This document shows positions 1,389 through 63,103 of a stretch of 64,000 nt of DNA, in pieces. A program made the position numbers and the translations under genes. The notes beneath the pieces are model-generated. The model made no database searches. It saw only the letters and a program-made list of their open reading frames with translations, and was not told where the DNA came from. Source of the stretch: Knoellia sinensis KCTC 19936 (lineage in GTDB: Bacteria; Actinomycetota; Actinomycetes; Actinomycetales; Dermatophilaceae); the NCBI RefSeq assembly GCF_000768705.1, contig NZ_AVPJ01000017.1:1-64000 (forward strand), written 5' to 3'. The stretch's first letter is position 1. Each line of letters starts with the position of its first letter.

Positions 1389-4300
1389 TCAGGTCTGGGC
1401 AGGCGAGGCCGCGGGCTGAGTCACCGAAGGCTGGTCGACTGCCGCAGGCTCATCCGGCACAGGACCCGGCTTCCGGGATTTGCCGAACCTCAGGTACAGC
1501 GACGGCACCACGAACAGGTTGAGCAGCGTCGAGGTGATGAGACCGCCCAGGATGACGAGCGCCATCGGGTACTCGATCTCGTGGCCGGGCACGTCGCCCA
1601 TGACGACGAGCGGAACGAGGGCGAGCGCCGTCGCCAACGTCGTCATGAGGATGGGAGCCAGACGCTCCCGGGCGGCCCTGATGACGAGTTCGGGGCCGAA
1701 ACTCATGCCCTCGACCTCTTCGAGGTGCTGGCAGTGGCTGATCATGAGAATGCCGTTGCGAGCGGCGATCCCGAGCACGGTGAAGAGGCCCACGAAGGAG
1801 CCGATCGTCATCGTGCCGCTGGTCAACCACGCTGCAAGAACCCCGCCGACGAGCGCCATCGGCAGCGTGAGCAAGCTCAGGAGGGCGAGCCTCCACCGTC
1901 GGAACGACCCGTAGAGGAGGACGAGGATCGCCAGGAACGCCACGCCGCTGAGTAGCCGGAGCCGCTGGGACGCCGCAGCACGCTCCGTGTCCTCGCCGGT
2001 CACCTCGACGCGGTAGCCCACGGGCAGTTCGACGTTGTTGGCGGCTTCTTTGACGTCCGCTGCGACGTCTGCGAGCGGTCGGCCCTCGACGTTGGCCCCG
2101 ACATCGAGCCTGCGGGAGCCGTCGATGCGGCGGATCATGCTGGGCGTCGAACTCATCTCGACTGCGGCGATGTCCGCCAGCCGCACGGTGCCGCCCGAGG
2201 GCGTGTCGATGAGCATGTCGCGCACGTGATCGGGAGTCCGTCGCGACTCGGGGACGCTCCACACCATGACGTCATAGGCCTTGCCCACGCGGTACACGTC
2301 GGACATCTCCTCGGCGGAGAGGTAGACCGCCGCCTGACGACGGACGTCTCCGGGCTTGAGTCCGACGGCCTGCGCCTTGTCGAGGTCGACCTCCACGACG
2401 AGGTGTGGGATTCGGGTCTGGAGGTCCGTGTGCGGATCCTTGACACCGGGTATGCCGGCAATGGCGTCCTCGATCTCGTGCGCCTTCTCCTCGATGATGT
2501 CGAGGTCGTCCCCGTAGACCCGGACGACGACTGCTTCACCTGCGCCGGTGAGCACCTCGCGGATGCGCTCCTTGAGGTAGGTCTGGACGTCCCTCCGCAG
2601 GCCGGGGTACCCGTCGACCACGGTCTGAACGCGGTTCAGGGTCTGTTCGTAGTCCTCGTCGGGGTCGATGCTGATCCAGTTCTCGACGAAGTAGATCCCA
2701 TAGACCTCGTCACCCATCATCGCCTGCCCGACGTGGGCGCCGAAGTTCCGAACGCCCGGCACTTCGCGCAGCTCGCGACTCGCAGCCCTCGTCACGTCCA
2801 TGGTCTCGTCGTAGGACGCACTCGGCTCGAGGACCCAGTGCATGAGGAAGTCGCGTTCGCGGAACGTGGGCAGGAGGTCCTGACCCAGCCGCGGGACCAC
2901 GGCGATCCCGCCGGCGACAAGGGCCGCCACAACGAGGTATGCGGCGAGCGGACGACGGACGGTGGGCCGCAGAACCTTCGTGTAGGCAGCCTGGGTCCAC
3001 CGCACGATGGGCGGCGGCTTGGGGTCGAGCTTCGCGTTGCGAAGCAGGATCAGCGCCATGGCCGGCGTCGTCGTGATGGCGACGAGCATCGACGCCGCGA
3101 CCGCCAAGGTGTACGAGAAGGCCAGTGGCTGGAAGAACGACCCCATGAGGCCGGTGAGGAAGAAGACGGGGATGGCCGCAGCGAGGATGATCAGGGTCGC
3201 GTAGACGATGGGGCTGCGCACTTCCAGGGATGCCTCGAGCACGATCGACGCGGTCGACCGGGTCCCACCGGCCGCACGGTGCTCACGCAGGCGCCGCACG
3301 ATGTTCTCGACGTCGATGATCGCGTCGTCGACGACGACGCCGACGGCGATGACCAACCCCGCGAGGACCATGGTGTTCGTCGTCTCGCCTCGATGGTGGA
3401 GGACCAGGGCCGCGGCCACGAGCGACAGCGGGATCGCGACGAGCGAAATGACGGCTGTCCTCCACTGGAACAGGAAGAACATGAGCAACACCGCCACCAG
3501 CAGGACCCCCAGCGTGAGGGCCTGGGTGAGGTTCTCGATCGCCAACTCCACGAAGCTCGCCGGCCGGAAGATCGTGGTGTCGATCTCGAGGTCGCCGAGG
3601 GCGGGCTGCATCGTCGCAAGCGTCTCCTCGACCTGACGGGTGACGTCCAGGGTGTTGCCCCATGGGAGCTTCTCGACGATCAGCAGGAGCCCCTCGCCGT
3701 CGTTGATGACGGCGTCGCCGATGAGCAGCTGGTGACCCTTGACGACGTCAGCGACGTCGCCCATCAGCACCGTCCCGCTCGCTTGTCGCTTGATGACGAT
3801 CCCTGAGATGGACTCGGCCGACTCGAGGGGCAACACATGCTGCACCGCCACCCGCTCGCCGGCTGCGTCGACGTACCCCCCGGTCCCGATCTTGGTGCCG
3901 GTCCGGTGCTTGAGCAGGCCCGCATCCGTGCCAGCGGATGCCGCGGTCATCACTTCCTCCTGGGTGACTCCCGCAGCCCGCATGCGCTCAGGGTCGATCT
4001 GGATCTGCCACTGGTTCTTGCGCATGCCCCACACGGCGACATTGGCGACGCCCGGGATCGACATGAGCTGCGGACGGATCTTGTATCGCACGATCGTTGC
4101 CTGCTCGATGAGGTCGATCTTGTCGGACTGCACCCCGATCTTGAGGACCCGGCTTGTCGCGGACAGCGGCTGAAGCACCACGGGAGGGGTCGCCCAACTC
4201 GGAAGCGTCGGCGTGATCGTCTGGATCCGCTCAGCGACAAGGCGTCGAGCCTCGATGATGTCCGTTCCCTTGGTGAAGATGAGTTCGATCGACGACTGCT

Positions 4301-4565
4301 GCGGGATCGACTTCGAGCGCAGCGTCTCCAGCCGCGGCATGCCGGTGAGTCCCTGTTCCATCGGCACCGTGATGAGTTCCTCGACCTCCTGGGCCGACAG
4401 CCCCAGCGCATCGGTCTGCACCTCGACCCGAGGCGGGGCGAACTCAGGGAAGACGTCGATCCTGGTGTCCCTCAGTTGTAGGCCCCCGACCACGAGCATG
4501 GCGATGGAGGCGGCGACAACGATGTAGCGGAAGCGGAGGCTCGCGGTGAGGATGTGACGCATCAT
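1389..4565 (-). CDS. RND efflux permease, heavy-metal-efflux (CusA/CzcA) type
   Basis: This 1058-residue inner-membrane proton antiporter is full length for the RND superfamily. The order is TM1 (about residues 13-30), first periplasmic porter loop (40-340), TM2-TM6, a cytoplasmic linker, TM7, second porter loop and TM8-TM12. TM4 contains VDDAIIDVEN at 412-421, whose acidic residues match the proton-relay position of heavy-metal RND pumps. TM10 carries AARNGILMI. The tail is Pro/Ala-rich. The gene is last in a three-gene operon, 12 nt after the adaptor lipoprotein, and its stop lies 10 bp from the tRNA-Arg attachment remnant. Substrate is unknown; metal cations or biocides are the family's usual substrates. 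Codon use and rarity of the GGCATAC motif suggest acquisition. The start is either of two adjacent ATGs (4565 or 4562). Confidence 0.9.
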   Translation of the reverse strand: MMRHILTASLRFRYIVVAASIAMLVVGGLQLRDTRIDVFPEFAPPRVEVQTDALGLSAQEVEELITVPMEQGLTGMPRLETLRSKSIPQQSSIELIFTKGTDIIEARRLVAERIQTITPTLPSWATPPVVLQPLSATSRVLKIGVQSDKIDLIEQATIVRYKIRPQLMSIPGVANVAVWGMRKNQWQIQIDPERMRAAGVTQEEVMTAASAGTDAGLLKHRTGTKIGTGGYVDAAGERVAVQHVLPLESAESISGIVIKRQASGTVLMGDVADVVKGHQLLIGDAVINDGEGLLLIVEKLPWGNTLDVTRQVEETLATMQPALGDLEIDTTIFRPASFVELAIENLTQALTLGVLLVAVLLMFFLFQWRTAVISLVAIPLSLVAAALVLHHRGETTNTMVLAGLVIAVGVVVDDAIIDVENIVRRLREHRAAGGTRSTASIVLEASLEVRSPIVYATLIILAAAIPVFFLTGLMGSFFQPLAFSYTLAVAASMLVAITTTPAMALILLRNAKLDPKPPPIVRWTQAAYTKVLRPTVRRPLAAYLVVAALVAGGIAVVPRLGQDLLPTFRERDFLMHWVLEPSASYDETMDVTRAASRELREVPGVRNFGAHVGQAMMGDEVYGIYFVENWISIDPDEDYEQTLNRVQTVVDGYPGLRRDVQTYLKERIREVLTGAGEAVVVRVYGDDLDIIEEKAHEIEDAIAGIPGVKDPHTDLQTRIPHLVVEVDLDKAQAVGLKPGDVRRQAAVYLSAEEMSDVYRVGKAYDVMVWSVPESRRTPDHVRDMLIDTPSGGTVRLADIAAVEMSSTPSMIRRIDGSRRLDVGANVEGRPLADVAADVKEAANNVELPVGYRVEVTGEDTERAAASQRLRLLSGVAFLAILVLLYGSFRRWRLALLSLLTLPMALVGGVLAAWLTSGTMTIGSFVGLFTVLGIAARNGILMISHCQHLEEVEGMSFGPELVIRAARERLAPILMTTLATALALVPLVVMGDVPGHEIEYPMALVILGGLITSTLLNLFVVPSLYLRFGKSRKPGPVPDEPAAVDQPSVTQPAASPAQT

Positions 4566-8258: not shown

Positions 8259-8843
8259 TCAGCCAGACGTCTGGGCCCGCGTGATGAGATCGAGGTAGTC
8301 GTCCGCCGTCGCCGGGCCGCCCAGACCCAGTTGCTGGTCGATGAGCACGAACGGAGTCTGGGTCACCTCCAGCCCCTCGGCCGTCGCCCTGTCTGCGTCG
8401 ACGTCGGCTCGCCTCTCCTGCGACTCCAGGATGGCCGCGGCCCGGCCCTCGTCCAGACCGGCCTCGCCGGCGAGGCGTTGCAGAACCGTCGGCGACTCGA
8501 TATCCGCCCCTTCGATGAACACCGCGGCATACAGCCGCTCGAGGACCGCACCCTGCAAAGCAGGACCGCCCAATGCCAGCCCTTGGGCCACGAGTCGGTG
8601 GGCGTCGGTGGTGTCATGGGCAGGTGGCGTGGCGACCGAGATGAGGATCCCCTCCACCCGGCCCTCCTCCGCAGCTCGCTCGAGCTCGTCTGCGGACGTC
8701 GGCGAACCGGGCAGGGCGCGATGGATCACCAGCACCTCTGACGGCCGCCCGGACTTCGCCACAGCTGCCTCGAGGCGGCGCTTCGCGACGTAGGACCACG
8801 GGTCGATCACGTCGCCCCAGAGTTCACAGTCGAGGGTGGCCAT
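8259..8843 (-). CDS. DsbA/2-hydroxychromene-2-carboxylate isomerase-like thioredoxin-fold protein
   Basis: The 194-residue cytoplasmic protein has the FrnE/DsbA-like fold: a beta strand with the active-site turn at residues 14-19, a long helical insert, and the cis-Pro segment EVTQTPFVLIDQQ near residues 160-172 before the last strand. FrnE-like oxidoreductases have CPWC at the turn, but this protein reads DPWSYVAK, so both catalytic cysteines are missing. A Ser at the second position resembles kappa-class glutathione transferases and HCCA isomerases (SPYS). It may therefore be a thiol-dependent transferase or isomerase rather than a disulfide oxidase. The start ATG 8843 is followed by MATLDCELWGD, where homology begins. 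It stands alone, between the RND operon and a terminator. Confidence 0.75.
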   Translation of the reverse strand: MATLDCELWGDVIDPWSYVAKRRLEAAVAKSGRPSEVLVIHRALPGSPTSADELERAAEEGRVEGILISVATPPAHDTTDAHRLVAQGLALGGPALQGAVLERLYAAVFIEGADIESPTVLQRLAGEAGLDEGRAAAILESQERRADVDADRATAEGLEVTQTPFVLIDQQLGLGGPATADDYLDLITRAQTSG

Positions 8844-8920: not shown

Positions 8921-8941
8921 ATCTGGCGTATGCCGTGTGGC

Positions 8942-11920: not shown

Positions 11921-13177
11921 TCACGCCCGGACGGGCTTCGCCGCTGCGCGGCGCGGATCGTATGCCGGGAGCCACCGTGCGAGCCATGGTGCGCCTCCCA
12001 GCACGAGGACTCCGAGGACCACGCAGGCGGGCCCGAGCCCGGCGAGGAGCGTCACGCCACTCACGAGGAGCGGCGCCCCGTTCTGCCCGATGAGCGAGAG
12101 GAACCGCCACACCGACAGGAACTGCGCCCGTCCCGCGACCGGCGCCGCGTCGGCGCCCAGCGTCTGGACGATCCCCGAACCCAGACCGTTGCCGATTCCC
12201 ATGAGGGTGGACACGGCCGCCACGGCGGTGAACCCGTGGGTCAGTGGCAGCAGCACCATGCCTGCGCCGAGGATGACGAGGAAGGGCACGGCCACCCACA
12301 CCCGGCCGAACCGGTCCATGATCGAACCCGCCGGATAGAAGAGGAGCACTTCGGCTCCGCCTGCGATGCCGAAGATCAGCGCGGTCTGGCTGTCCGTGAT
12401 CCCGACCGACTCGGCCCACAGGGGCACGATGACGAACCGGCCCTGACGAGCGGCCCCAATGATGATGACGCCGACTCCGATCGTGAGCACGACCGCCCTG
12501 TGCCGACGGATGACGTCACGCAGTCCGACCCGCTCCGGGCCGCCCCTGCCCGAACCTCCGCTCCACCGGTGTCCCGCACCGGAGTTCGCCGGGTCGATTG
12601 CTGCCGTGTCCGCGTCCCGTAGTCCAACCCAGGCCCAGACCGCGGCGAGGAGACCCGCGACGACCGCCACGGCATACGCGGCCTGTGTTCCCCAGATGGC
12701 GATGATCGGTGCGGCGACGAATGGGCCGACGAACAGGCCGATGCGTTGGACCCCGCCCATCGTCGACATCGCCCGCGCCCGGATCCGGACGGGAGCACGG
12801 GCCGTGAGCCAGGACTGTCTGGCAAGCATGAAGACCGACCCCGTCATGCCCATGAGCCCGATGGCGATGCCGAGCGTGACGAGATTGGGCGCGACCACGG
12901 CGAGAGCCGCACCGACGGCGTCGACCAGCGCCGCGCCGGCCAGTGCACGGCGCTCCCCGATCCGCGCGACGAGCGAACCGGCGGGCAGTGACGACACGAA
13001 CGCGGACATGCCCTCGATGAGGACGAAGGCCGCCGCAACGGCCACGCTCGCGCCCAGGTCCCTCGCGCTGAGGGCCACGACGGGTAGTGCCGCCCCCACC
13101 CCGACGGACCACACGGCGGTGGGTCCGAAGGCTGGCAGCGCGATGCTCCGCAACGAGAAGTCGTCGGTGCCTGTCAC
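11921..13177 (-). CDS. MFS transporter
   Basis: The 418-residue product has 12 predicted membrane helices and the MFS loop 2-3 signature in the form GSLVARIGERRALAG. Substrate is not evident. The chosen start is GTG 13177 (VTGTDDFSLRSI), because homology-like MFS sequence begins there and no upstream ATG gives a better protein. It is the first gene of a two-gene operon with dtxR, so metal-responsive expression or a metal/siderophore-linked substrate is conceivable, but nothing in the protein demonstrates it. It diverges from citA, with about 135 bp between the starts. The coding frame stays open far upstream; that extension is only a shadow of citA. Confidence 0.85.
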   Translation of the reverse strand: MTGTDDFSLRSIALPAFGPTAVWSVGVGAALPVVALSARDLGASVAVAAAFVLIEGMSAFVSSLPAGSLVARIGERRALAGAALVDAVGAALAVVAPNLVTLGIAIGLMGMTGSVFMLARQSWLTARAPVRIRARAMSTMGGVQRIGLFVGPFVAAPIIAIWGTQAAYAVAVVAGLLAAVWAWVGLRDADTAAIDPANSGAGHRWSGGSGRGGPERVGLRDVIRRHRAVVLTIGVGVIIIGAARQGRFVIVPLWAESVGITDSQTALIFGIAGGAEVLLFYPAGSIMDRFGRVWVAVPFLVILGAGMVLLPLTHGFTAVAAVSTLMGIGNGLGSGIVQTLGADAAPVAGRAQFLSVWRFLSLIGQNGAPLLVSGVTLLAGLGPACVVLGVLVLGGAPWLARWLPAYDPRRAAAKPVRA

Positions 13178-14472: not shown

Positions 14473-14512
14473 GACTGCACGGCATACGAACGAATTCGTA
14501 TGCCGTGCAGTC
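14473..14512. terminator. Perfect hairpin made of two GGCATACG motifs
   Basis: Arms GACTGCACGGCATACGAA (14473-14490) and their exact complement (14495-14512) enclose a CGAA tetraloop 17 bp past citA. It is a strong terminator and also a head-to-head pair of the genome-wide GGCATAC motif. Confidence 0.75.
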
Positions 14513-15882: not shown

Positions 15883-17178
15883 ATGGGCGTCAGCAGGCAT
15901 CGGGCGGCACTGGCCGCCCTGAAGACCACGACGGGCAAGCGGATCGCCGGGGCGGTCGCTGCACTCGCCGTGACGTCGACCGGTGTCGCTGCCGTGGCTG
16001 CCACGGAGCCGGCCGCCCAGGCCAAGCCGCGCCTCGTCGTCCCTCCCGTGCCGGTCTACCAGGCGGGCGGCGTCACCACGCTGCCAGCACTGCCGGCTCT
16101 TCCTGCCCTGGAGCTTCCGGACCCCAACGCCACGATCACCCCCGAGTCCCTCGCGGGCGAGCCGCAGACGTGGGGGCTGACCAGCACCGCGAGTGGCATC
16201 CCGGCCCAGGCCATGGCGGCCTACCAGGCGGCGCAGCGACTCCTCGCCCAGGCGGACCCCGGATGCAAGATCGACTGGGCCCTGCTCGCCGGCATCGGCA
16301 AGGTCGAGAGCGACCACGGCCGGTGGGGTCGCAACCTCCTCGACGCGGCCGGTACCGCCGTGCCCGGCATCTTCGGAATTCCCCTGACCGGCGACGGGGT
16401 CGCCCGCATCACAGACTCCGATGGCGGCCGCTACGACCGCGACGTCATCTGGGACCGCGCCGTCGGACCCATGCAGTTCATCCCCGGCACGTGGAAGTCC
16501 GTCGGGGCCGACGGCAACGGCGACGGCAAGCGCGACCCGCAGAACATTGCCGACGCCGCCACCTCGGCGGGCATCTACCTGTGCTCCGGACGAGGGGACC
16601 TCACGCAGCCTGCGGACCTCACCCGGGCAGTGCTCCGCTACAACCACTCGATGGACTACGTCACCAAGGTGACCAGCATCGCGGCGTCGTACCGTTCCGG
16701 CCACAGCGTGGTCCCGGCCACGGCCCTGCCGCCGGGGTATGCCGGCCGCACGCCCTACCTGCCCCCCGCCGGCTCCCAGCCCGGTCCCGCGACCAGCCCG
16801 TCGCCGAGCGCGACCACCTCACCGTCGGCGTCGACGTCACCGAAACCACAGGCCACGTCGGAGCCCTCGCGCTCCACGGCCCCCCAGCCGAAGCCCTCGA
16901 CGGCCGCGCCCCAGCCCACGAAGGCCCCCGCGCCCAAGCCTGTCGTGCCGCTGCCGAAGGTCACCGCGACGCCACTGCCGTCGACCACGGTGGGGGTCGA
17001 CCCGGACCCCTTCTCAGTGGGGGACACGGTGAAGATCACCGCCGGCCAGCACGTCGGCCTGTCCGCCAGGATCCTCAAGGTCGACACGTCCAAGGACACC
17101 GTGACCGTCGCCGTCACCGTGCTCGGCGTCGACATCCCCGTCGTCCTCCCCTACAGCGACGTCGCCCTCGTCCCGTAG
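15883..17178 (+). CDS. Secreted lytic transglycosylase with C-terminal KOW domain
   Basis: This 431-residue exported protein begins with an RR-containing signal region (hydrophobic 20-42). The soluble lytic transglycosylase domain spans about 105-285: catalytic Glu in GIGKVESDHG (Glu142) and the MltB-like AVGPMQFIPGTW (193-204). It cleaves MurNAc-GlcNAc bonds with 1,6-anhydro product formation. A Pro/Ser/Thr linker (about 300-370) leads to a last domain at 373-431, FSVGDTVKITAGQHVGLSA followed by a beta barrel ending in VVLPYSDVALV. This closely resembles the KOW domain of NusG and is unusual in an extracytoplasmic enzyme. The ATG at 15883 follows AAGGAGG. A terminator hairpin follows the gene. 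Confidence 0.9.
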   Translation: MGVSRHRAALAALKTTTGKRIAGAVAALAVTSTGVAAVAATEPAAQAKPRLVVPPVPVYQAGGVTTLPALPALPALELPDPNATITPESLAGEPQTWGLTSTASGIPAQAMAAYQAAQRLLAQADPGCKIDWALLAGIGKVESDHGRWGRNLLDAAGTAVPGIFGIPLTGDGVARITDSDGGRYDRDVIWDRAVGPMQFIPGTWKSVGADGNGDGKRDPQNIADAATSAGIYLCSGRGDLTQPADLTRAVLRYNHSMDYVTKVTSIAASYRSGHSVVPATALPPGYAGRTPYLPPAGSQPGPATSPSPSATTSPSASTSPKPQATSEPSRSTAPQPKPSTAAPQPTKAPAPKPVVPLPKVTATPLPSTTVGVDPDPFSVGDTVKITAGQHVGLSARILKVDTSKDTVTVAVTVLGVDIPVVLPYSDVALVP

Positions 17179-17444: not shown

Positions 17445-17531
17445 TCAGGTCAGGACGGCATACGCGATGGCCACGATCACGAGCACGGCCAGGACGCCGA
17501 GCGTCATCCGGCGACGGAAGGCCGGCGTCAT
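17445..17531 (-). CDS. 28-residue membrane peptide coupled to the MFS gene
   Basis: MTPAFRRRMTLGVLAVLVIV plus eight further residues (to LT) encodes a positively charged start and one hydrophobic helix, a typical small single-pass membrane protein. Its ATG overlaps the MFS stop as ATGA, implying translational coupling. It is therefore probably a third product of the marR-MFS operon, perhaps a transporter-associated small protein. No family is recognised. The GGCATAC motif near its end encodes the Tyr-Ala pair as TAT GCC. Confidence 0.6.
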   Translation of the reverse strand: MTPAFRRRMTLGVLAVLVIVAIAYAVLT

Positions 17532-18826: not shown

Positions 18827-19275
18827 TCGTTCGCCACCTTGGTGAGGATCTCGCTCGCACGCAGCAGGATCGCCTGCTCCTCGGGGTCGAGGTTGCTGAC
18901 GCGGACGGCCATCCAGGCGTCACGCTTGCGGCGGGTGTCCTTGAGCGCCTTGCGTGCGTCGTCGGTCAGGGTCACGACGACCTGACGCTTGTCGGTGGGG
19001 TGCGGCGCTCGTTCGACCCAGCCGCGCTCCACGAGACCGCCGACGGTGCGCGTCATGCTCGGCGCACTGACCCTCTCGATCTCGGCCAGTTCACCAGGGC
19101 TCCGCGGAGACTCCTCGAGGCGACACATCACCGAGAACTGGTGCGGCGCAATGGAATCCGTGCTCTCGTAGCGAACCCGGCGCGAGATGCGCATGCAGGC
19201 CAACCGGAGCTCTCCGGCAAGTGAGGACACCGCGGAAGGCCGCAAGGCGGCATACGAACGGGTGTTTTCACTCAT
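18823..19275 (-). CDS. MarR-family transcriptional regulator
   Basis: The 150-residue winged-helix protein has the typical MarR layout: helix for dimerisation, HTH with SAPSMTRTVGGLVERGWVER, and wing HPTDKRQVVVTLTDDARKAL (about residues 70-113). It probably represses its own operon and releases DNA on binding a small ligand. The ATG at 19275 lacks a Shine-Dalgarno, but TAGGCT ends 6 nt before it, so the transcript is probably leaderless. A palindromic operator covers that promoter. Confidence 0.92.
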   Translation of the reverse strand: MSENTRSYAALRPSAVSSLAGELRLACMRISRRVRYESTDSIAPHQFSVMCRLEESPRSPGELAEIERVSAPSMTRTVGGLVERGWVERAPHPTDKRQVVVTLTDDARKALKDTRRKRDAWMAVRVSNLDPEEQAILLRASEILTKVANE

Positions 19276-19308: not shown

Positions 19309-19383
19309 TTTCCGTCGTCCACGTGGTGACTTCCGAGCGATCTCGTATGCCGTGTGGCCACCGCGCTCGCTAAGGTGCCGCCC

Positions 19384-20968: not shown

Positions 20969-21271
20969 TCAGTGGGCGTCGCTGGCGTTGCCGCGTCCCC
21001 GGCGCACATAGAGCAAACCCACCGTGCCGAGCACGAGCCCGGCGACGCAGGCCCACGGCCACCACGACCGGTCGCCCTCGTGCAGCGCGGGAACCAGCAG
21101 CGTCAGGACGAGCGCCACACCCCACAGGACGAGGCCGATCCCGACGATCCGCTGGGTGGGCACGTGCAAGGCTTCGAGTGCCTCGACCTCGTCAGCGCTC
21201 ACCCGACCCGGACCTGCAGGCGTGGGTATGCCGTCCGCCCGCCGCTCGCTCGATCCCCCGGTCTCGCTCAT
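20969..21271 (-). CDS. DUF2530 two-helix membrane protein
   Basis: This 100-residue protein starts with a polar segment and ends in two hydrophobic helices, IVGIGLVLWGVALVLTLLV and a second one ending GTVGLLYVRRGRG. That is the DUF2530 pattern of small actinobacterial membrane proteins of unknown function. It is the last gene of the csp-DUF3027-DUF2530 operon, starting 7 nt after the DUF3027 stop. In related genomes DUF2530 and DUF3027 are also neighbours. Confidence 0.8.
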   Translation of the reverse strand: MSETGGSSERRADGIPTPAGPGRVSADEVEALEALHVPTQRIVGIGLVLWGVALVLTLLVPALHEGDRSWWPWACVAGLVLGTVGLLYVRRGRGNASDAH

Positions 21272-21278
21272 GGCCGGA

Positions 21279-22019
21279 TCAGACCCGCTCGAGCTCGTTG
21301 TCGTCGAGCACGGGAGGCGCGATGACCTCGGGCTCGGGGGCATCGATGTCCACCTCGGAGTGCGCGCCGCAGCCGTGGTCAAGGCTGACGACGGCGCCGT
21401 CGGACGGAGACCAGGCGTTGGCGCACACGCCGAAAAAAGACCGAAGTGCACCCGCCATCGGGATGAAGAAGCCACAGGACGAGCACGGCGCCGGAGCCTT
21501 CTGCGCCACGGGCGCGTTGGGGCCGTGGTCGCCGTCGTACCAGCGCTGGGCCGCGACCTCGCGCCCCTCGGCGGACAGCACGCGTGGACGCCCGAGGCCG
21601 AGCTCCCAGGCCACGGCGGCATCCTCATCACCCTCGAGACCGGTCGCCTCGAAGCCGGCCTCGAGCAGCGGGTCGTCGTCGACCTTGGGGGTGACGTCGC
21701 CGGGTCCGATGTCCCCGGGAGCCAGCCGGTCGGCATACGGAAGCCACTCGGGTGACAACAGCGCACCGTCACCCGGGACGAGGTTGGTCTCGCAGACGGT
21801 GACGGTCTTGGAGCGCGGCACGCGCGCGACCGTGATCGCCCAGCGCCACCCCGGGTAGGCACCGGCCGTGCACGCGAAGTAGTGCGTCGCGAGCCGGTCC
21901 TCGACCATCTCCATGCCGAGGTGGTCGCCGACGGTCCCTCGCTCGGCGATCGACTCGGCCGCCTCGCGGGCGACCTCGACCGCACCCTTGAGGGTGGCGT
22001 CGGGCTTGAGGGTCGGCAT
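21279..22019 (-). CDS. DUF3027 protein with zinc-binding-like motif
   Basis: The 246-residue soluble protein belongs to DUF3027, a conserved actinobacterial family of unknown function. From memory M. tuberculosis Rv0883c, near serC, belongs here. Recognisable segments are HYFACTAGAYPGWRWAITVA, the central GDIGPGDVTP, and PCSSCGFFIPMAG followed by FGVCANAWSPSDG and DHGCGAHSE. The Cys/His spacing in the last part could bind zinc. Its ATG overlaps the stop of the cold-shock gene (TGATG), so the two are translationally coupled. Confidence 0.85.
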   Translation of the reverse strand: MPTLKPDATLKGAVEVAREAAESIAERGTVGDHLGMEMVEDRLATHYFACTAGAYPGWRWAITVARVPRSKTVTVCETNLVPGDGALLSPEWLPYADRLAPGDIGPGDVTPKVDDDPLLEAGFEATGLEGDEDAAVAWELGLGRPRVLSAEGREVAAQRWYDGDHGPNAPVAQKAPAPCSSCGFFIPMAGALRSFFGVCANAWSPSDGAVVSLDHGCGAHSEVDIDAPEPEVIAPPVLDDNELERV

Positions 22020-43746: not shown

Positions 43747-43850
43747 GGTGACAACGCTAGGTGGGCGGACGGCATACGCGCTCTGGGTTTTCACCCGGAG
43801 GCGACCCTGAATCAACCCCGAACCGGGAACCTCACGCCGCGTCGGCACCC

Positions 43851-43970: not shown

Positions 43971-44002
43971 TTGGCGTATGCCGTGTGGTTCCGATCAGGA
44001 GA

Positions 44003-45815: not shown

Positions 45816-45857
45816 CGACTGCCGTATGCCGTCCGCCCACCTCCCGCGCCCACCTCG

Positions 45858-49235: not shown

Positions 49236-50240
49236 TCAGGCGGCGGCGCAGGGATCGACGCCCGGCTGACCCGGGCGCTCGATGCCACGCTCGTCGAGGA
49301 TCGACTCGAGCAGGGTCGGCTTCGCGGGCATGATGCCGTCGGCACAGGTGTCGATCATGGCGTTGTAGGTCGCGGCGTCGTCAGGTGCCGAACCCGAGAA
49401 CCAGACGTGCACGGCATACCCATCGTTGTGGGCTCGCTGCACGAAAGCGCGCGTGGCGACCGGAATCCCCGCGAAGGTGACGGGCACCTGGAAGGCGACC
49501 GTCCCCTCCGGCGGTTTCACGCCCAAGAGGAAGTAGTTGATCATCGCGTTGCGCGCCGCTGACATCGGCACCTGCGGCGCGCGCTGGTGGAAGTCGGCGA
49601 GAGCCGCGTCGTTGAACGAGCCGACGATGAGATCGGTGCGCCCACTCTTGTTGAGGAGGTCGGCGAGCAGGGTGCCGGTGCGGATGAACGAGGCCGTGTC
49701 CGCGTCGCTCGTCCCCTTGATCTCGATGTTGATGGGCGTGGTGGGGAACGCGCGCAGGACTTCCTTGAGGGTGGGAACCCGGAAGTCCTTGTTCTTGTAG
49801 CCGTCGACCTTCGGCTTGCCGAATCGCGCTCCGCGCAGGGTGTATGCCGTCCGGTCGAGTCCGTGGACCGCGCTGCGCCCCGGGACGAACCAGTGCGCGG
49901 CGTCGAGGGCCTGGACCTCGTCGAGCGTCTTGTCGACGACGCGTCCGGTGCCGTTGGTCGTCTCGTCGACGGTCGCGTTGTGCATGACGACGACCTGGCC
50001 GTCCTGCGTGGACTGGACGTCGATCTCGAGCATGTCGGAGCCGAGGGCCACGGCACGCTTGAACGCGTACATCGTGTTCATCGGCGCCTCGTGCTCACCG
50101 CCGGAGTGCGCCATGTTGAGGACGCGCTGCTCGAGCCACGGGTTCGTGTCAGCGGCCGCGGCGGGGACGGCGGTCACGCTCGCAGTGACGGCCAGAGCGG
50201 CGGTGGACAGGAGGACCGGGAGCAGGCGACGTCGGCGCAT
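49236..50240 (-). CDS. Secreted glycerophosphodiester phosphodiesterase family protein
   Basis: This 334-residue exported protein has a signal peptide (1-33, ending PAAAA) and a GDPD TIM barrel. Active-site segments are NMAHSGGEHEAPMNT (usually HRG..EN), EIDVQSTQDGQVVVMHNATVDETTNG with metal-binding Glu, Asp and the catalytic His, and NIEIKGT. Such enzymes release glycerol 3-phosphate from lipid or teichoic-acid diesters. The Gly to Ser change after the first His is unusual but the other residues are intact. TAGCGT lies seven bases before ATG 50240, implying a leaderless mRNA. Confidence 0.88.
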   Translation of the reverse strand: MRRRRLLPVLLSTAALAVTASVTAVPAAAADTNPWLEQRVLNMAHSGGEHEAPMNTMYAFKRAVALGSDMLEIDVQSTQDGQVVVMHNATVDETTNGTGRVVDKTLDEVQALDAAHWFVPGRSAVHGLDRTAYTLRGARFGKPKVDGYKNKDFRVPTLKEVLRAFPTTPINIEIKGTSDADTASFIRTGTLLADLLNKSGRTDLIVGSFNDAALADFHQRAPQVPMSAARNAMINYFLLGVKPPEGTVAFQVPVTFAGIPVATRAFVQRAHNDGYAVHVWFSGSAPDDAATYNAMIDTCADGIMPAKPTLLESILDERGIERPGQPGVDPCAAA

Positions 50241-51414: not shown

Positions 51415-51877
51415 AGAGCTCGGGAGTGTGACCCGTGAACGTTGCCCGCATCGTGCCGTCGGCCTCCGACGACACCGGGTCGTCGAGGTCGGCAACGAAC
51501 ACCGCAACCATCGACCGGGCCGGATTGGACTCGGCCTCGGCCAGCACGACGCGCCAGGCGGCCAGGTTGGGGTGGTCGACCTCGGTGCACGCCTCGGCTG
51601 GCGCGAGCGACTCGATCGCCGCGGCCAGCTGCGAGAGGGACACGTCGAGCGTCGCCGTCGACCCGTCGTGCTTCAACACCGTTGCGAGCACCACGGCCGG
51701 CAGCCCGTGCCGCCCACCCGGCAGGTTGACGTGACCGAACGCCCACTCGGGAGAGCTGGAGGCCGGACTGAGCCCGACGGCATACGCGACAGGAGGGCGC
51801 CAGCCCTCGATCTTCGCGGCGAGGTGGTCCTTGATGGCCGCAAGGCCATCGGGCGTGCTCCAGTCGAGCTCGCTCAC
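51413..51877 (-). CDS. Conserved hypothetical protein
   Basis: The 154-residue soluble acidic protein starts MSELDWSTPDGLAAIKDHLA and contains YAVGLSPASSSPEWAFGHVN and HPNLAAWRVVLAEAESNPA. The alternation suggests a mixed alpha/beta fold; no catalytic motif or signal peptide is visible. I do not recognise the family. It begins 4 nt after the DUF3263 stop, so the two form an operon. Confidence 0.7.
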   Translation of the reverse strand: MSELDWSTPDGLAAIKDHLAAKIEGWRPPVAYAVGLSPASSSPEWAFGHVNLPGGRHGLPAVVLATVLKHDGSTATLDVSLSQLAAAIESLAPAEACTEVDHPNLAAWRVVLAEAESNPARSMVAVFVADLDDPVSSEADGTMRATFTGHTPEL

Positions 51878-52307: not shown

Positions 52308-52970
52308 TCACAGTGGCCCCCCGAGCAGGTATGCCGTGAGGTCGCTGACGCTGTCGACGACCGTATCCGGACCGGTCGCCTCCAAGGCGTCGCGTTCGCC
52401 CGCACCCCAGGTGACGGCGACCGCACTCATGCCCGCTGCCCGGGCCGCAAGCATGTCGACCGTCGCGTCCCCGACATAGACCGCCCGGCTGGGTTCGACA
52501 CCGACCCGGGCGGCCGCCGCGAGGAGCGGTTCGGGCTCCGGCTTGTGCTTCGCCGTGTCCTCGAGCCCGCCGGCGACGTCGATGAGGTGGTCGATGCCGA
52601 CCCCGACGAGGGCAAGCCGCGCGGTGTCGCGGCGCTTGCTCGTGACGACGTGGAGGTCCGCGCCCGCCCCGGTGAGGGTCGTGAGCATCTCGGGCACGCC
52701 GGCATACCGCTCGATGAGTCGCGAGGTGTTGGCGAGGTTCCACTCCCGATAGGTGCGGTCGAGGTCATGCCCGCGGTCCGGGTCCTCCTCGAGCAGGGCC
52801 GCAAGGAGGGGGCGCCCAATCCACGCGCGTGCCCGGGCCTCTTCGACCTCCTCGCCGAGAACCTCGCGGAACGCGTGCTGATAGCTCGCGACGATGAGCG
52901 GGATCGTGTTGGCGAGGGTGCCATCGAGGTCGAAGAAGATCGTCTTCCAGCGGAGGGAACTCACCCGCAC
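52308..52970 (-). CDS. HAD-family phosphatase, phosphoglycolate-phosphatase-like
   Basis: This 220-residue HAD hydrolase has nucleophile motif I FFDLDGTLANT, motif II in HVVTSKRRDT, Lys motif III in KHKPEPEPLL and motif IV VYVGDATVDMLAARAAG. The cap is helical (about 20-90), as in Gph/PpaX enzymes, so small phosphorylated metabolites are likely substrates. The GTG at 52970 follows GAGGAT; GTG 52964 is a close alternative. No operon partner is apparent. Confidence 0.88.
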   Translation of the reverse strand: MRVSSLRWKTIFFDLDGTLANTIPLIVASYQHAFREVLGEEVEEARARAWIGRPLLAALLEEDPDRGHDLDRTYREWNLANTSRLIERYAGVPEMLTTLTGAGADLHVVTSKRRDTARLALVGVGIDHLIDVAGGLEDTAKHKPEPEPLLAAAARVGVEPSRAVYVGDATVDMLAARAAGMSAVAVTWGAGERDALEATGPDTVVDSVSDLTAYLLGGPL

Positions 52971-54351: not shown

Positions 54352-55031
54352 GACTGTTCCTTCGGTTCGAGGCGGGGTTCGAGAACAAACAAATGTATGC
54401 CGGCCAGCCCGAATCCGACGCCCGTCACCTGGGCGGCGAGGAAGGGCAGGACGTGGGCGGGCGTGATGCCGGCAAAGGTGTCACTGAACATCCTCGCGAT
54501 GGTGACGGCCGGGTTGGCGAAGGACGTCGACGAGGTGAACCAGTAGGCCGCGAGAATCCAGGCCGCGACGAGCCACGGGGCACGATCACCCCGGCCCCCG
54601 CGACTCACATGGCCGACGACGAGGACGAGCCCGGCCGTGGCAACGATCTCCCCAACCCATTGCCCCACACCGGTTCTCGGCTTGTCGGAGAAGTGCAGCG
54701 GGGCGAGTTCATACATGAGGTTCGCGAGCGCGACGCCGAGCACTCCCCCGGCAACCTGTGCCACGGCATACCCGGGGAAATGGGACCACGGGAGGTCGCG
54801 ACGAACCGCCTGGGCGAGCGAGACGGCAGGGTTGAAGTGCGCCCCACTCACCGGCGCGATGACGGCGATGAGGACCGCGAGGGCTGCGACGGTGGCGACG
54901 GCGTTGGCGAGCAACTGGAGGCCGACGTCATGGGTGAGCCGCTCCGCCATGATGCCGGAGCCGACGATAGCCGCGAGGAGCCCCGCGGTGCCGACGGCTT
55001 CGGCGGCGAGCGCCCGAGGGAGTGGGGTCAC
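54348..55031 (-). CDS. MIP/aquaporin channel of the arsenic operon (AqpS-like)
   Basis: The 227-residue membrane channel has six helices and two NPA half-helices, AHFNPAVSLA (about 69-78) and FANPAVTIARM (about 178-188). Its place between arsI/cadI and arsC matches Sinorhizobium aqpS, where the channel lets arsenite made by ArsC flow out down its gradient. There is no ArsB or Acr3 pump nearby. GTG 55031 overlaps the preceding stop as GTGA, so this start is chosen over TTG 55040. Confidence 0.9.
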   Translation of the reverse strand: MTPLPRALAAEAVGTAGLLAAIVGSGIMAERLTHDVGLQLLANAVATVAALAVLIAVIAPVSGAHFNPAVSLAQAVRRDLPWSHFPGYAVAQVAGGVLGVALANLMYELAPLHFSDKPRTGVGQWVGEIVATAGLVLVVGHVSRGGRGDRAPWLVAAWILAAYWFTSSTSFANPAVTIARMFSDTFAGITPAHVLPFLAAQVTGVGFGLAGIHLFVLEPRLEPKEQS

Positions 55032-57134: not shown

Positions 57135-57815
57135 GTGACCCCGCCGCGGCCGCTCGTCGAGATCGTCCATCCGTCGTGGGCGCAGGCTCTGGCGCCGGTG
57201 GAGCCCACGCTCACGGAACTTGGCGAGTTCCTCCGCGCGGAGCTCGCCTCCGGTCGCGGCTACCTTCCCGACGGATCCCACATCCTCCGGGCGTTCGAGC
57301 AGCCCCTCGACGACGTCCGCGTCCTCATCGTGGGTCAGGACCCCTACCCGACGCCGGGCCACGCGATCGGACTGAGCTTCGCCGTCGCCCCGGACGTCCG
57401 CCCCATCCCCCGCAGCCTCGTCAACATCTACACCGAACTCCAGTCCGACCTCGGAGTCCAAGCGCCCACCAGCGGCGACCTCACCCCGTGGGCTGAGCGT
57501 GGCGTCCTCCTCCTCAACCGGGTCCTCACGGTTCGCCCGGGCACGCCCGCGAGCCACCGCGGCAAGGGCTGGGAACAGGTCACCGATTGCGCCATCGACG
57601 CCCTCGTCGCCCGCGGGGGCCCTCTCGTCGCGATCCTGTGGGGCAGGGACGCTCGCGCCCTGCGAAGCCGTCTGGACGGCATACCGTGTGTGGAAAGCCC
57701 ACATCCCTCGCCACTGTCGGCGCGGTCCGGCTTCTTCGGGTCGCGACCGTTCAGCCAAGCAAACTCCCTCCTCGATCAGCAGGGAGCCCAACCCCTCGAC
57801 TGGAGACTCCCGTGA
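57135..57815 (+). CDS. ung: Uracil-DNA glycosylase, family 1
   Basis: This 226-residue repair enzyme removes uracil from DNA. It has motif 1 [17 protein letters not shown] with catalytic Asp69, the Phe stacking site in LSFAV, the uracil-recognition Asn in [10 protein letters not shown], and motif [13 protein letters not shown] with the catalytic His. GTG 57135 lacks a Shine-Dalgarno; TAGGTT ends six bases upstream, so the mRNA is probably leaderless. Its stop overlaps the next gene's start (GTGA), forming an operon. Confidence 0.95.
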
Positions 57816-58636: not shown

Positions 58637-58678
58637 GGCCTGTCACGAGCGGCTGTGGCGGGCGTTACAGTCGCCGGT

Positions 58679-59839
58679 ATGCCGGTCACTCGCCTCATGC
58701 CCTCCTCCGAGGGTGACGATCTCATCGCCCTCACCCGCGAGATCTGCGCCAAGGAGCTGCGCCCGCGGGTCGACGACGCCGAGCGCGCCGCTGCTGAAGG
58801 CGAGTCCTTCCCGACCGAGGTGTTCCGGACCTTGGGTCAGGCTGGGCTCCTCTCCCTCCCGCACCCCGAGGAGCACGGCGGTGGTGGCCAGCCCTACGAG
58901 GTCTATCTCCAGGTCGTCGAGGAGATCGCGTCGGCGTGGATGAGTGTCGCGGTGGGGGTGTCGGTGCACTCGCTCACGGCCTATCCCGTGACGGCGTTCG
59001 GGACGCCGGAGCAGCAGGCGGCCCTCCTGCCGGGGATGCTGTCCGGCGACACCCTCGGGGCCTACGCCCTGTCCGAGCCCCTGGCCGGTTCTGACGTCGG
59101 CTCGATGACAACGCGAGCGACGCGCGAAGGTGACGGGACGGCATACGCGATCAAGGGCCGCAAGGCCTGGATCAGCCACGCCGGGCATGCCGACTACTAC
59201 ACGACCTTCGCCCGCACCTCCGACGACGGCGGACGCGGGATCTCGTGCTTCATCGTGCCCGCTGGTTCGGACGCCATGACGTTCGGGACACCGGAGAAGA
59301 AGATGGGTCTGCACTGCGACACGGTGCGCGAGGTGATCTTCGAGGGCGTCCCCGTCGACGAGGCGAACCGCATCGGCGACGAGGGTCAGGGCATGGCGAT
59401 CGCACTCTCCGCGCTCGACGCCGGACGGCTCGGGATCGCTGCTGGCGCGACGGGACTCGCACAGTCGGCGCTCGACGTGGCTGCGGCCTATGCCCAGGAG
59501 CGAGAGCAGTTCGGGCGGGCGATCGCGTCGAACCAGGGACTGGCCTTCCTCATCGCGGACATGGAAGCCGCCGTCTCGGGTGCGCGCGCTGCCTATCTGT
59601 ATGCCGCGCGCCTCAAGGACGCAGGCCGTCCCTTCTCCAAGGAGGCGGCGGTGGCCAAGCTGCTCGCCACCGACGCGGCGATGAAGGTGACGACGGACGC
59701 CGTGCAGGTGCTCGGCGGCGCGGGCTACACCCAGGACTTCCCGGTGGAGCGGATGTTCCGCGAGGCCAAGGTGACCCAGATCTTCGAGGGGACCAACCAG
59801 ATCCAGCGCCTCGTCATCAGCCGTCACGTCCTGCGCTGA
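58679..59839 (+). CDS. Acyl-CoA dehydrogenase
   Basis: This 386-residue FAD enzyme introduces a trans-2 double bond in acyl-CoA during beta-oxidation or branched-chain degradation. Signatures are YALSEPLAGSDVGSM (flavin and substrate site), KAWISHAGHADYY, and the C-terminal REAKVTQIFEGTNQIQRLVI containing the catalytic Glu of short/medium-chain types. It is close to short-chain or branched-chain dehydrogenases. TACAGT ends seven bases before ATG 58679, a leaderless start. It follows the SGNH gene by 42 bp. Confidence 0.93.
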   Translation: MPVTRLMPSSEGDDLIALTREICAKELRPRVDDAERAAAEGESFPTEVFRTLGQAGLLSLPHPEEHGGGGQPYEVYLQVVEEIASAWMSVAVGVSVHSLTAYPVTAFGTPEQQAALLPGMLSGDTLGAYALSEPLAGSDVGSMTTRATREGDGTAYAIKGRKAWISHAGHADYYTTFARTSDDGGRGISCFIVPAGSDAMTFGTPEKKMGLHCDTVREVIFEGVPVDEANRIGDEGQGMAIALSALDAGRLGIAAGATGLAQSALDVAAAYAQEREQFGRAIASNQGLAFLIADMEAAVSGARAAYLYAARLKDAGRPFSKEAAVAKLLATDAAMKVTTDAVQVLGGAGYTQDFPVERMFREAKVTQIFEGTNQIQRLVISRHVLR

Positions 59840-60014: not shown

Positions 60015-61358
60015 TCAGTCGGGGTCGCGCGAGATGCCGGGCAGCAAGGTGTCACCGGCGCGCAGTGCGTCGAGGGCGCCAGGGTGCTCGCCCACGAACT
60101 CCAGCCCCTTGTGCCGGTAGCGCCAGATCTGGAAGGCGCCGACACCCCACAGCAGGAACTGCACCGACATCGCGACCTTGAAGTCCGTGAGCGTGTAGGT
60201 CTCCGGCCCCGCCGGCGCCCGCTGGTCGAGGATGATGCCGATCGCGGCCATGGTCACGAGCGATGCGAAGAACCCGCCGATGTTGATGACGCCGGTGGCG
60301 CGCCCCAGCCGGTCGGAGGGGTGGAAGCTACGGGCGAGGTCGAAGCCGACCATGGACCCGGGGCCGCCGCACCCCGTCACGCACACGAGAAGTACGAGCA
60401 GGGGCATCGGCGCCGGCCCGGGCCAGAGCAGCACGACCGCCCAGGTGCTCGCGATCACCGTGACGATGACGAGCACGATCTGCGACCGGCGGTAGGGCAA
60501 CCGGCCGGTGAGGTGCCCGATGATCGGCCCGGCGAACATCGAGGCCACCGTGAGCGTGATGAGCAGCGAGCCGGCCGCCGTCGGGCTGAGCCCCTGACCG
60601 GACACGAGGAACGGGTAGCCCCACAGCATCGTGAAGACCGTTGCGCCGAACTGCCCCGTGAAGTGGATCCACATGCCGAGGCGTGTCCCCGGGTTGCCCC
60701 ACACCTCCCCCAGCGTGCGGGCCAGCGCGCGCACCTTGATCTTCTCGACGGCCATGCCGGTGTAGGGCGAGTCCTTGACGAAGAGGAAGAGGGCAATCGA
60801 CAGCAGCGCCCCCACTGCGGCCGGGATGCCGAAGGCCCTCTCCCAGCCATAGTTGCTCAGAGCGGCGGCAAGCGGTGTGGCCGCAGCGACCGCGCCGAGC
60901 TGCCCGACCATCCCGCTGAGCTGGGTGATCACCGGTGCTTGCTTGACCCGGAACCACAACGCGACCAGACGCAGCATCGACGTGAAGATCATGGCGTCGC
61001 CGATTCCGAGGAGGACGCGCGCCGCAAGACCCACCCCGTACGTCCCCGCGAACGCGAACCACAACTGGCCGGCGGAGATCAGGGCCAGCCCGATGAGGAG
61101 CAGGCGACGCGACCCGAAGCGGTCCAGGAGGACACCCACGGGAATCTGCATGCCGGCATACACGACGAGCTGGAGGACCGTGAACGTCGCGAGTTGCGAC
61201 GCGGTGATCTGGAACCGTTCTGCCGCAACGATTCCAGCGACACCGAGCGACGTGCGGTGGAAGACCGCGACCGTGTAGACGGCGAGGGCGACCAGCCAGA
61301 TGACCCACGCGCGCCGCCGACCGATGTCGTGGATCTGCCGCTGGAGAGGTCGCGTCAC
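60015..61358 (-). CDS. MFS transporter
   Basis: The 447-residue, 12-helix transporter has VAVFHRTSLGVAG in TM1-loop, loop 2-3 GVLLDRFGSRRLLLIGL and RVLLGIGDAMIFTSML in TM4-5. It belongs to a group of MFS proteins common in actinobacteria without known substrate. The C-terminal tail (RHKGLEFVGEHPGALDALRAG) is cytoplasmic. The GTG at 61358 lies six bases past TAGCAT, so the transcript is probably leaderless. It diverges from the tRNA-Thr gene and is the last core gene before the right island. Confidence 0.88.
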   Translation of the reverse strand: MTRPLQRQIHDIGRRRAWVIWLVALAVYTVAVFHRTSLGVAGIVAAERFQITASQLATFTVLQLVVYAGMQIPVGVLLDRFGSRRLLLIGLALISAGQLWFAFAGTYGVGLAARVLLGIGDAMIFTSMLRLVALWFRVKQAPVITQLSGMVGQLGAVAAATPLAAALSNYGWERAFGIPAAVGALLSIALFLFVKDSPYTGMAVEKIKVRALARTLGEVWGNPGTRLGMWIHFTGQFGATVFTMLWGYPFLVSGQGLSPTAAGSLLITLTVASMFAGPIIGHLTGRLPYRRSQIVLVIVTVIASTWAVVLLWPGPAPMPLLVLLVCVTGCGGPGSMVGFDLARSFHPSDRLGRATGVINIGGFFASLVTMAAIGIILDQRAPAGPETYTLTDFKVAMSVQFLLWGVGAFQIWRYRHKGLEFVGEHPGALDALRAGDTLLPGISRDPD

Positions 61359-61503
61359 CGCTCAATGCTATTGACGATTCCCGTATGCCGTCCGCGCCGC
61401 TCCGTGCCCAGCCACCTGGCTCCGTGTGGTCGGGAATGGGACTCGAGCCGAGTGGCAGGTAAAGTTCGGGGCGCCGTCGGGGGCGTACTGCTCGCCGACG
61501 CGT

Positions 61504-62897: not shown

Positions 62898-63103
62898 CGG
62901 CCACCGCGTGCGGTGGACACCGGCGCCAGCAGTGCGTCGACTTCTTCGACGTCGAGACGCAGGAGGCGCGGACCCGTCCGGTATGCCTCCAGCCGACCGG
63001 CCGCAATCCACCGCCGCAGCGTCCGGGTGTCAACGGCCAACCGATCGGCTGCAGACTGCAGAGTCTCATAGCGCCGACGGCGGGGAGCAACGTTGTGCCT
63101 CAT
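62894..63103 (-). CDS. Excisionase-like MerR-type HTH protein
   Basis: The 69-residue product starts MRHNVAPRRRRYETLQSAAD and contains the HTH LAVDTRTLRRWIAAGRLEAY followed by RTGPRLLRLDVEEVDALL, the Xis/MerR-like domain. ATG 63103 follows GGAGG; longer frames to 63166 lack a ribosome binding site. It is a homologue of the protein at 928-1119. The convergent orientation to int, overlapping by four bases, is unusual because int and xis normally run together, so opposing transcription could limit both. Confidence 0.85.
   Translation of the reverse strand: MRHNVAPRRRRYETLQSAADRLAVDTRTLRRWIAAGRLEAYRTGPRLLRLDVEEVDALLAPVSTARGGR

Follow-up and report, generated by a model that had tools for sequence, protein, structure and literature searches.

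The 4.0 Mb genome of Knoellia sinensis carries the non-palindromic 8-mer CGGCATAC 2,485 times, divided almost equally between the strands (1,234/1,251), and we consider it an even bet that this word tags self-DNA in the manner of uptake sequences, being kept by molecular drive and having inverted copies used as terminators. The window, i.e., the entire stretch of 64,000 nt that was analyzed, contains 53 copies of the core GGCATAC when both strands are counted (27 forward, 26 reverse), in agreement with the original prediction of about 52 evenly split copies. The 6–7 copies that it had derived from base composition correspond to a computed 6.8; a third-order Markov model trained on the window yields 4.3 and 100 dinucleotide shuffles yield 2.1 (maximum 7), and the over-representation had been understated. 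Almost all of these copies are CGGCATAC (27/25 by strand), for which the expectation is 1.9 copies, dropping to 0.3 when the model is built from sequence with the sites masked. The proposed extension to (A/C)CGGCATACG held for A (ACGGCATACG, 19 copies) but not for C (CCGGCATACG, 1 copy). The positions within the window are as follows:

2450..62987, no strand, span of all 53 GGCATAC copies (52 being CGGCATAC)
14480..14505, inverted pair (GGCATAC copies + 14481-14487 and - 14498-14504), predicted terminator-like hairpin 24 nt past a predicted stop codon
38188..38215, inverted pair (GGCATAC copies - 38188-38194 and + 38209-38215), not wholly intergenic
2450..2456, -, GGCATAC copy
8526..8532, +, GGCATAC copy
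8928..8934, -, GGCATAC copy
11960..11966, -, GGCATAC copy
12671..12677, +, GGCATAC copy
16737..16743, -, GGCATAC copy
17457..17463, +, GGCATAC copy
19249..19255, +, GGCATAC copy
19345..19351, -, GGCATAC copy
21226..21232, -, GGCATAC copy
21732..21738, +, GGCATAC copy
22509..22515, -, GGCATAC copy
22609..22615, +, GGCATAC copy
24231..24237, -, GGCATAC copy
24489..24495, +, GGCATAC copy
25815..25821, +, GGCATAC copy
28517..28523, -, GGCATAC copy
28685..28691, +, GGCATAC copy
30036..30042, -, GGCATAC copy
30674..30680, +, GGCATAC copy
31523..31529, +, GGCATAC copy
31972..31978, +, GGCATAC copy
33291..33297, -, GGCATAC copy
33878..33884, +, GGCATAC copy
35890..35896, -, GGCATAC copy
36361..36367, -, GGCATAC copy
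37072..37078, -, GGCATAC copy
37645..37651, +, GGCATAC copy
39282..39288, +, GGCATAC copy
39385..39391, +, GGCATAC copy
39729..39735, +, GGCATAC copy
39903..39909, -, GGCATAC copy
43771..43777, +, GGCATAC copy
43976..43982, -, GGCATAC copy
45824..45830, -, GGCATAC copy
49413..49419, +, GGCATAC copy
49842..49848, -, GGCATAC copy
51779..51785, +, GGCATAC copy
52329..52335, -, GGCATAC copy
52701..52707, +, GGCATAC copy
54395..54401, -, GGCATAC copy
54765..54771, +, GGCATAC copy
57678..57684, +, GGCATAC copy
58677..58683, -, GGCATAC copy
59140..59146, +, GGCATAC copy
59599..59605, -, GGCATAC copy
61155..61161, +, GGCATAC copy
61383..61389, -, GGCATAC copy
62981..62987, -, GGCATAC copy

The enrichment is neither a local effect nor a product of short-range composition, the two outcomes that would have spoken against the original prediction. 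Genome-wide, the reversed word used as a control occurs only 68 times, and the summed count of the 24 words that differ from CGGCATAC by one mismatch equals background. In a sample of 464 kb, comprising the window and 20 further stretches of the same genome, 294 copies were found, compared to 13.1 and 53.7 predicted by third- and fourth-order models, respectively. An extension of approximately 11 bp is confined to the upstream side, with A at -11 and -1, and the extended form in this genome reads roughly A-G-G-Y-G-R-S-C-G-S-A-CGGCATAC-S. Spacing is no more even than random (CV 0.895 vs 0.926 +/- 0.046). No orientation bias along the chromosome was detected, with samples of 20 kb being roughly balanced as well, which upholds the earlier argument against an oriented Chi or KOPS signal; an apparent strand switch on contig 1 was discounted because 6 samples of that contig proved to be balanced. 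The two site-poorest of 40 stretches from this genome carry mobile genes (TniQ, IS), an observation that concerns these two stretches only.

Copies are found within as well as between genes, at a density of 1.23 per kb in intergenic regions and 0.51 per kb in genes as delimited by our own gene caller. Predicted genes harbor 371 of 534 sampled copies, in all six reading frames and both orientations, each frame being enriched for the word, with rare codons in use. That the word forces such codons had been proposed for TAT in Tyr-Ala and for GCA before TAC, and both cases were borne out in 861 kb: TAT encodes Tyr before GCC in 173/202 instances in motif context vs 84/262 elsewhere, and GCA encodes Ala before TAC in 114/195 vs 4/327. 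The same applies to ATA for Ile after GGC (37/119 vs 2/511). Selection (or drive) acts on the DNA, as had been suggested. Of 180 sites that were aligned, 129 are identical in congeners, compared to 30% of control 8-mers.

Sites in close proximity (≤70 bp) are predominantly inverted (34 pairs, vs 3 direct ones), and 21 of the 24 intergenic inverted pairs are located 3–98 nt past a stop codon, the other 3 lying in divergent gaps. Judged by their sequence, the pairs that follow stop codons are predicted to form terminator-like hairpins. More generally, 72 of 163 intergenic copies fall within 60 nt past a stop codon. Viral contigs were also scanned for inverted pairs, which yielded 3 contigs; their GC content of 38–54% does not match the hosts considered here.

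Beyond this genome, 186 genomes of the Dermatophilaceae were examined and, using cut-offs set in this analysis, classified as rich (107), intermediate (17), or poor (62) in the word. Summed over the rich genomes, 101,351 forward and 101,042 reverse copies were counted. In 25 of the 53 genera of the family, all genomes examined carry the tag, while single species within otherwise rich genera are at background level (G128, G149, and G092). None of 392 other genomes of the phylum was clearly rich, and within the genomes searched, the abundance of the word is restricted to the family. A text search of the literature for the word itself returned a Ralstonia paper, at title level.

Two lineages use changed words, i.e., dialects: CGGCATCC in G033 (180 copies vs 19.5 expected in 180 kb) and CG(G/T/C)CATAC in G034 (182 vs 21.3 expected in 140 kb), the latter being present also at a Flexivirga caeni locus. 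The excess of inverted over direct pairs is weak in these genomes (8 vs 3 in G033, 10 vs 7 in G034). Further candidate dialects, CGGCGTAC, CGCCGTAC, and similar words in G069, G128, and G031, were left out of this tally, as were the CGNCGTAC variants, because loci from Nocardioides, a member of another family, contain CGGCGTAC as well (58 copies vs 13.9 expected).

Since the word is frequent, direction-bearing, family-wide, and paired as hairpins after genes, it looks like a self-DNA tag for natural transformation, and comparison places it nearer to uptake sequences (DUS/USS) than to HIP1, Chi, or KOPS. A receptor of the competence machinery, at the surface or the wall, would recognize the word in its double-stranded form, and word-bearing fragments from relatives would be taken up and recombined more often. 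Through molecular drive, such an uptake bias would propagate and preserve copies, both genic and intergenic, with close inverted copies being reused as transcription terminators. According to excerpts of PMC3630211 and PMC1852404, the DUS of the Neisseriaceae is likewise a short non-palindromic word with many copies, terminator-forming inverted pairs, and lineage dialects (the last described in PMC3630211), and five genomes of that family lack an obvious DUS, comparable to the poor genomes found here. Terminator hairpins formed by close complementary uptake signals are described for Neisseria and Pasteurellaceae in excerpts of PMC1852404 and PMC13020248, and the USS of the Pasteurellaceae is a short repeated word too; however, word and organisms are unrelated to ours, and the uptake preference for USS is established, whereas for the present word it is a prediction. 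The reverse complement of the word with its commonest flank, GTATGCCGTC, has ATGCCGTC in common with the DUS ATGCCGTCTGAA, most likely by chance. In contrast to the DUS, the word occurs in GC-rich Actinobacteria, and type IVa PilT scored above the cut-off in just 2 of the 186 genomes, weaker matches resembling TadA-type ATPases; uptake through a type IVa pilus was rejected on this basis. Copy number, occurrence on both strands, inverted pairs after stop codons, dialects, and the presence of ComEA and ComEC are shared with known uptake-sequence systems, but the type IVa pilus machinery is not.

In the actinobacterium Micrococcus luteus, according to excerpts of PMC6370729, competence relies on Flp pili together with ComEA and ComEC; the K. 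sinensis genome carries ComEA, ComEC, and a Flp/Tad cluster. Yet none of ComEC, ComEA, Flp, and DUF4244 separates rich from poor genomes, which argues against the uptake-sequence reading. ComEC was matched in 56 of 59 drawn genomes, rich and poor alike, with the 3 misses being draft genomes of 58–95% completeness. By eye, ComEA did not differ between 6 rich and 5 poor loci, being of the usual make in all 11 (one of the 5 poor genomes has a changed word). The DUF4244 pilin is nearly universal (100/107 rich, 57/62 poor) and was rejected as a determinant, as was the Flp pilus, whose presence fails to track the word: the Flp pilin had no match in 3 of 9 Knoellia genomes, although these are rich, and across the family it was matched in 64/107 rich and 20/62 poor genomes (raw counts that ignore descent). 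Among the competence and pilus proteins examined (ComEC, ComEA, Flp, DUF4244, and PilT), no receptor candidate emerged, and competence in this family was not reported among the literature matches listed.

The original prediction had instead likened the word to HIP1 of cyanobacteria. A conserved DNA methyltransferase, perhaps with linked mismatch repair, would then create and keep the sites, an explanation that we regard as unlikely, albeit the least unlikely of the alternatives. It is favored by the occurrence of an abundant 8-mer across a lineage with losses and by the alternates and extensions that are known for HIPs as well (excerpts of PMC4390886), and the K. sinensis genome encodes enzymes with PF01555 (2 matches) and PF07669 (5 matches). 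However, HIP1 and the alternates named by Elhai (2015) are palindromes linked to methyltransferases, as stated in excerpts of PMC4390886, whereas CGGCATAC is not self-complementary, its extension is one-sided, and the hairpin pairs after stop codons would be left unexplained. Moreover, in a search that comprised two methyltransferase families, PF01555 and PF07669, the former was found in 41/107 rich and 28/62 poor genomes. Among the 9 Knoellia genomes, 4 lack PF01555 and 2 lack PF07669, and one (G007) has 2,982 copies of the word without either; these absences led us to reject both families as a requirement, but methylation by enzymes of other families, such as PF00145, PF02086, or PF02384, may occur. 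Overall, the original prediction is partly supported: over-representation, missing orientation, and DNA-level selection (or drive) stand, but the assignment to the HIP1 kind finds no support.

Two further alternatives appear somewhat less likely still, and equally so. Chi is a sharp asymmetric 8-mer, and a sharp non-palindromic word kept across the family would fit the look of such a recombination hotspot, at which an end-resecting nuclease (e.g., RecBCD, AdnAB, or AddAB) would act. RecC, to which the nuclease search was confined, was matched in 0 of 9 Knoellia genomes as well as in 46/107 rich and 36/62 poor genomes, and a RecBCD Chi was rejected on this distribution; the balanced strands, the intergenic enrichment, and the inverted pairs after genes are not expected of a Chi-like site either. 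A chromosome-architecture protein, i.e., a nucleoid or segregation factor binding thousands of sites, would account for the placement on both strands of the whole genome and for conservation at the DNA level, but not readily for the background counts in single species of rich genera, the sharpness of 8 bp, or the low counts in the two mobile stretches.

The spread of a transcription terminator or RNA element through multiplication is very improbable: it would suit the inverted pairs after stop codons, but it is largely refuted by the many genic copies in six frames and both orientations, and only 68 of the 534 sampled copies are part of close inverted pairs. Codon or composition bias, for which the fit of the word to frequent dipeptides like Tyr-Ala might speak, is practically negligible, being refuted by the use of rarer codons, the failure of third- and fourth-order models, and the higher intergenic density.

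As for the uptake-sequence reading, excerpts of a 2016 review (PMC5031613) place sequence-tagged DNA uptake in two families, the Pasteurellaceae and the Neisseriaceae, both Gram-negative. The word may represent a third origin and the first in Gram-positives, an independently evolved system in the Intrasporangiaceae/Dermatophilaceae with a receptor that does not belong to a type IVa pilus, lineage dialects, and repeated losses; we hold this fuller claim to be slightly less probable than even. If true, it would provide an independent system in which to study how specificity in uptake arises, drifts, and disappears, with word-free species of rich genera and lineages with altered words available for comparison, and it would suggest that natural transformation occurs in a group for which the literature matches listed contain no such reports. 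Even if the uptake-sequence reading is wrong, a sharp 8-mer with thousands of copies across a family would call for a novel conserved DNA-binding protein.

The heptamer GGCATAC/GTATGCC occurs 53 times in the window, 27 and 26 times on the two strands, in close agreement with the evenly split set of about 52 copies in the original prediction, and the 6-7 copies expected there from base composition compare with a computed 6.8. The over-representation persists when the window is modelled as a third-order Markov chain, which predicts 4.3 copies (dinucleotide shuffling, 2.1), and it extends across the genome, in which the non-palindromic 8-mer containing the heptamer, CGGCATAC (hereafter the word), is present 2,485 times (1,234 forward, 1,251 reverse), compared with 68 copies of the reversed word used as a control. 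Within 464 kb of this genome (the window and 20 further stretches), the word was the top 8-mer, with 294 copies against 13.1 (order 3) or 53.7 (order 4) expected, expectations that are inflated by the word's own copies (the window value falls from 1.9 to 0.3 once sites are masked).

The 24 one-mismatch neighbours of the word sum to 315 observed against approximately 320 expected, and the core is therefore sharp; the largest excesses were found for CGGCCTAC (40 versus 19.3) and CGGCGTAC (26 versus 15.9). At 293 sites, adenine is preferred at positions -1 (59%) and -11 (45%), and 112 unpaired intergenic sites show an upstream preference of approximately A-G-G-(C/T)-G-(G/A)-S-C-G-S-A before the core. 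Within genes, A at -11 is weaker yet present (36-39% in the two commonest frames, where this is by reckoning a third codon position). Samples of 20 or 40 kb from 18 further genomes (255 sites, 2 to 31 per genome) revealed the same core with differing flanks, for instance with G instead of A at -1 in the genomes G072, G139 and G023.

As originally proposed, copies lie both in genes (371, 0.51 per kb) and between them (163, 1.23 per kb), as assigned by a simple custom caller on 861 kb of the genome, in which any missed genes would be scored as intergenic. All six reading frames exceed the codon-based expectation (observed/expected: 173/9.4, 114/4.7, 37/0.4, 22/3.5, 14/0.8, 11/0.06), and rare synonymous codons do occur mainly within the word. 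Together with the intergenic density, this indicates that the word acts as DNA, in line with the earlier suggestion that selection seems to operate at that level. Alignments with five of eight congeners (81-84% DNA identity) covered 180 sites of the window, of which 129 were unchanged, compared with 4,015 of 13,189 8-mers of the same composition; the sites are maintained. Since 51 sites were window-only and 16 relative-only, the window lies on the rich side.

Adjacent copies no more than 70 bp apart form 34 inverted and 3 direct pairs. Of the inverted pairs, 10 overlap genes at least in part and 24 are intergenic, with predicted hairpin energies of about -12 to -45 kcal/mol; for 21 of the latter, a stop codon is found 3-98 nt upstream, and only 3 fall within divergent gaps, even though such gaps make up 36.6 of the 117.4 kb classed as intergenic. 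We infer that these pairs terminate transcription. Forming close inverted pairs after genes is a property shared with the uptake signals of Neisseria and Pasteurellaceae, for which closely spaced complementary copies within terminators are described in part of PMC1852404, while a section of a 2026 survey of prokaryote terminators (PMC13020248) reports uptake words in both groups.

A second dispersed element, around CGACTTTGTGCCC..TTGGGAC, is like REP or BIME elements; ACTTTGTGCC matched 26 times in 861 kb of the genome, including three copies in the window:

20951-20960, minus strand, copy of the second dispersed element
27207-27216, plus strand, copy of the second dispersed element
27269-27278, minus strand, copy of the second dispersed element

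Further copies lie in the sampled stretches L010, L012, L022, L027, L073, L081 and others; at least 8 inverted pairs are spaced 48-62 bp apart, often adjoined by an GGCCGAAGGCC-type palindrome. About 3 kb past the window end, a PF01555 DNA methyltransferase match was found (contig C9:67265-68320, 676 aa open frame).

Among 186 family genomes, 107 were rich in the word, 62 poor and 17 intermediate, with cut-offs set by eye at 120 or more copies per Mb for rich and fewer than 35 for poor genomes; in the intermediate G022 and G097, the count merely equals that of the reversed word. This control, CATACGGC, is imperfect in some rich genomes, being itself raised to 453-578 copies in G090 (578), G091, G093, G023 and G110. 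At the level of the 53 genera, 25 were all rich, 16 all poor and 12 mixed or intermediate, and poor species also occur within otherwise rich genera (G128, G149 and the 89% complete G092). In a phylum sample of 396 genomes, 4 of them from the family, no clearly rich genome was seen by eye among the 392 others; the highest density there, again by eye, was that of the distant G478, whose 1.8 Mb contain 161 copies alongside 30 of the reversed word, although the classes are not transferable to lower-GC genomes, in which the background is higher. Outside the family, 22 genomes of the same order showed no enrichment for CGGCATACG. The word was also counted in 14 named loci of presumed family members (9-22 kb each) that surround the neighbouring gene for an XPB-type helicase: it was numerous in MAG PHYC1 (27 copies), Flexivirga caeni (16), an Ornithinimicrobium (14), Arsenicicoccus bolidensis (11) and Segeticoccus (6), sparse in a Pedococcus (4; lineage looked up as Intrasporangiaceae), Phycicoccus Soil748 (2) and MAG AUS1 (2), and absent from Janibacter indicus, Kribbia, Piscicoccus, Kineosphaera, Luteipulveratus and Arsenicicoccus piscis. 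The name of the family derives in part from these neighbours.

Some family genomes carry a changed word. G033 has a single CGGCATAC in 180 kb and 180 copies of CGGCATCC (19.5 expected), 90 per strand, while in 140 kb of G034, CGTCATAC (80), CGGCATAC (53) and CGCCATAC (49) exceed expectations of 6.8, 9.1 and 5.5; base 3 is similarly loosened in the Flexivirga caeni locus. Close pairs are 8 inverted to 3 direct in G033 and 10 to 7 in G034, and the hairpin habit is therefore weaker in both. Elsewhere among the poor genomes, with about 4-47 kb sampled from each, no word of such pattern came first, and there were weak excesses of CGGCCTAC in G030 (15 versus 2.6) and CGGCATCC in G009 (16 versus 6.0). 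A repeat array may be present in two G030 samples (L040, L041; 40 kb), where ACCGTCGAA and AGTTCGACG reach 28 and 30 copies against an expectation of about 1. CGNCGTAC-type words in G069, G128 and G031 were rejected as changed words and excluded from the count because Nocardioides loci also show CGGCGTAC. More than one family of Actinobacteria shows an excess of words of the GGCGTACG/CGGCGTAC type (Nocardioides loci L139, L148, L157, L174 and L186; samples from G069, G128 and G031), GGCGTACG reaching 67 versus 13.8 expected in 108 kb of Nocardioides.

With regard to possible readers, rich and poor genomes were not separated by ComEC, ComEA, the DUF4244 pilin, the Flp pilin, type IVa PilT, RecC or two methyltransferase families. 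The Flp pilin was matched more often in rich (64 of 107) than in poor genomes (20 of 62), uncorrected for descent, and had no match in three rich congeners. A RecBCD-Chi system is rejected on the lack of orientation bias and on the distribution of RecC, which is patchy in the family (89 of 186 genomes) and matched in 0 of 9 genomes of the genus. The HIP1-type label of the original prediction fails, as the word is not a palindrome. For an uptake sequence, the chief weakness is that competence machinery is found in poor genomes as well. Five Neisseriaceae genomes without obvious DUS are mentioned in part of PMC3630211, and tag loss within a tagged family therefore has precedent. Among the matches listed for the word and for uptake sequences in Actinobacteria or the family, with subscription literature sparsely covered, there was no report of the word. 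In contrast to known uptake sequences (DUS/USS), no pilus or receptor among the proteins examined tracks the word and type IVa pili are nearly absent; in part because of this pilus feature, we class it as a putative and not as a proven uptake sequence.

Among 40 stretches of the K. sinensis genome (up to 20 kb each), two are very poor in sites, L019 (2 sites) and L023 (1), the next lowest having 8. L019 (C4:1-20000) encodes TniQ, with oxidoreductase, aquaporin, ArsR-type/phosphatase fusion and methyltransferase genes nearby, and is possibly a Tn7-like element carrying arsenic genes; L023 (C7:1-20000, 65% GC) encodes IS4 and IS110 transposases, a pRiA4b ORF3-like protein and a Hint-domain protein. 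The scarcity of sites in these stretches, of which there are only two, fits a self tag. In most features visible in the sequence the word resembles an uptake sequence.
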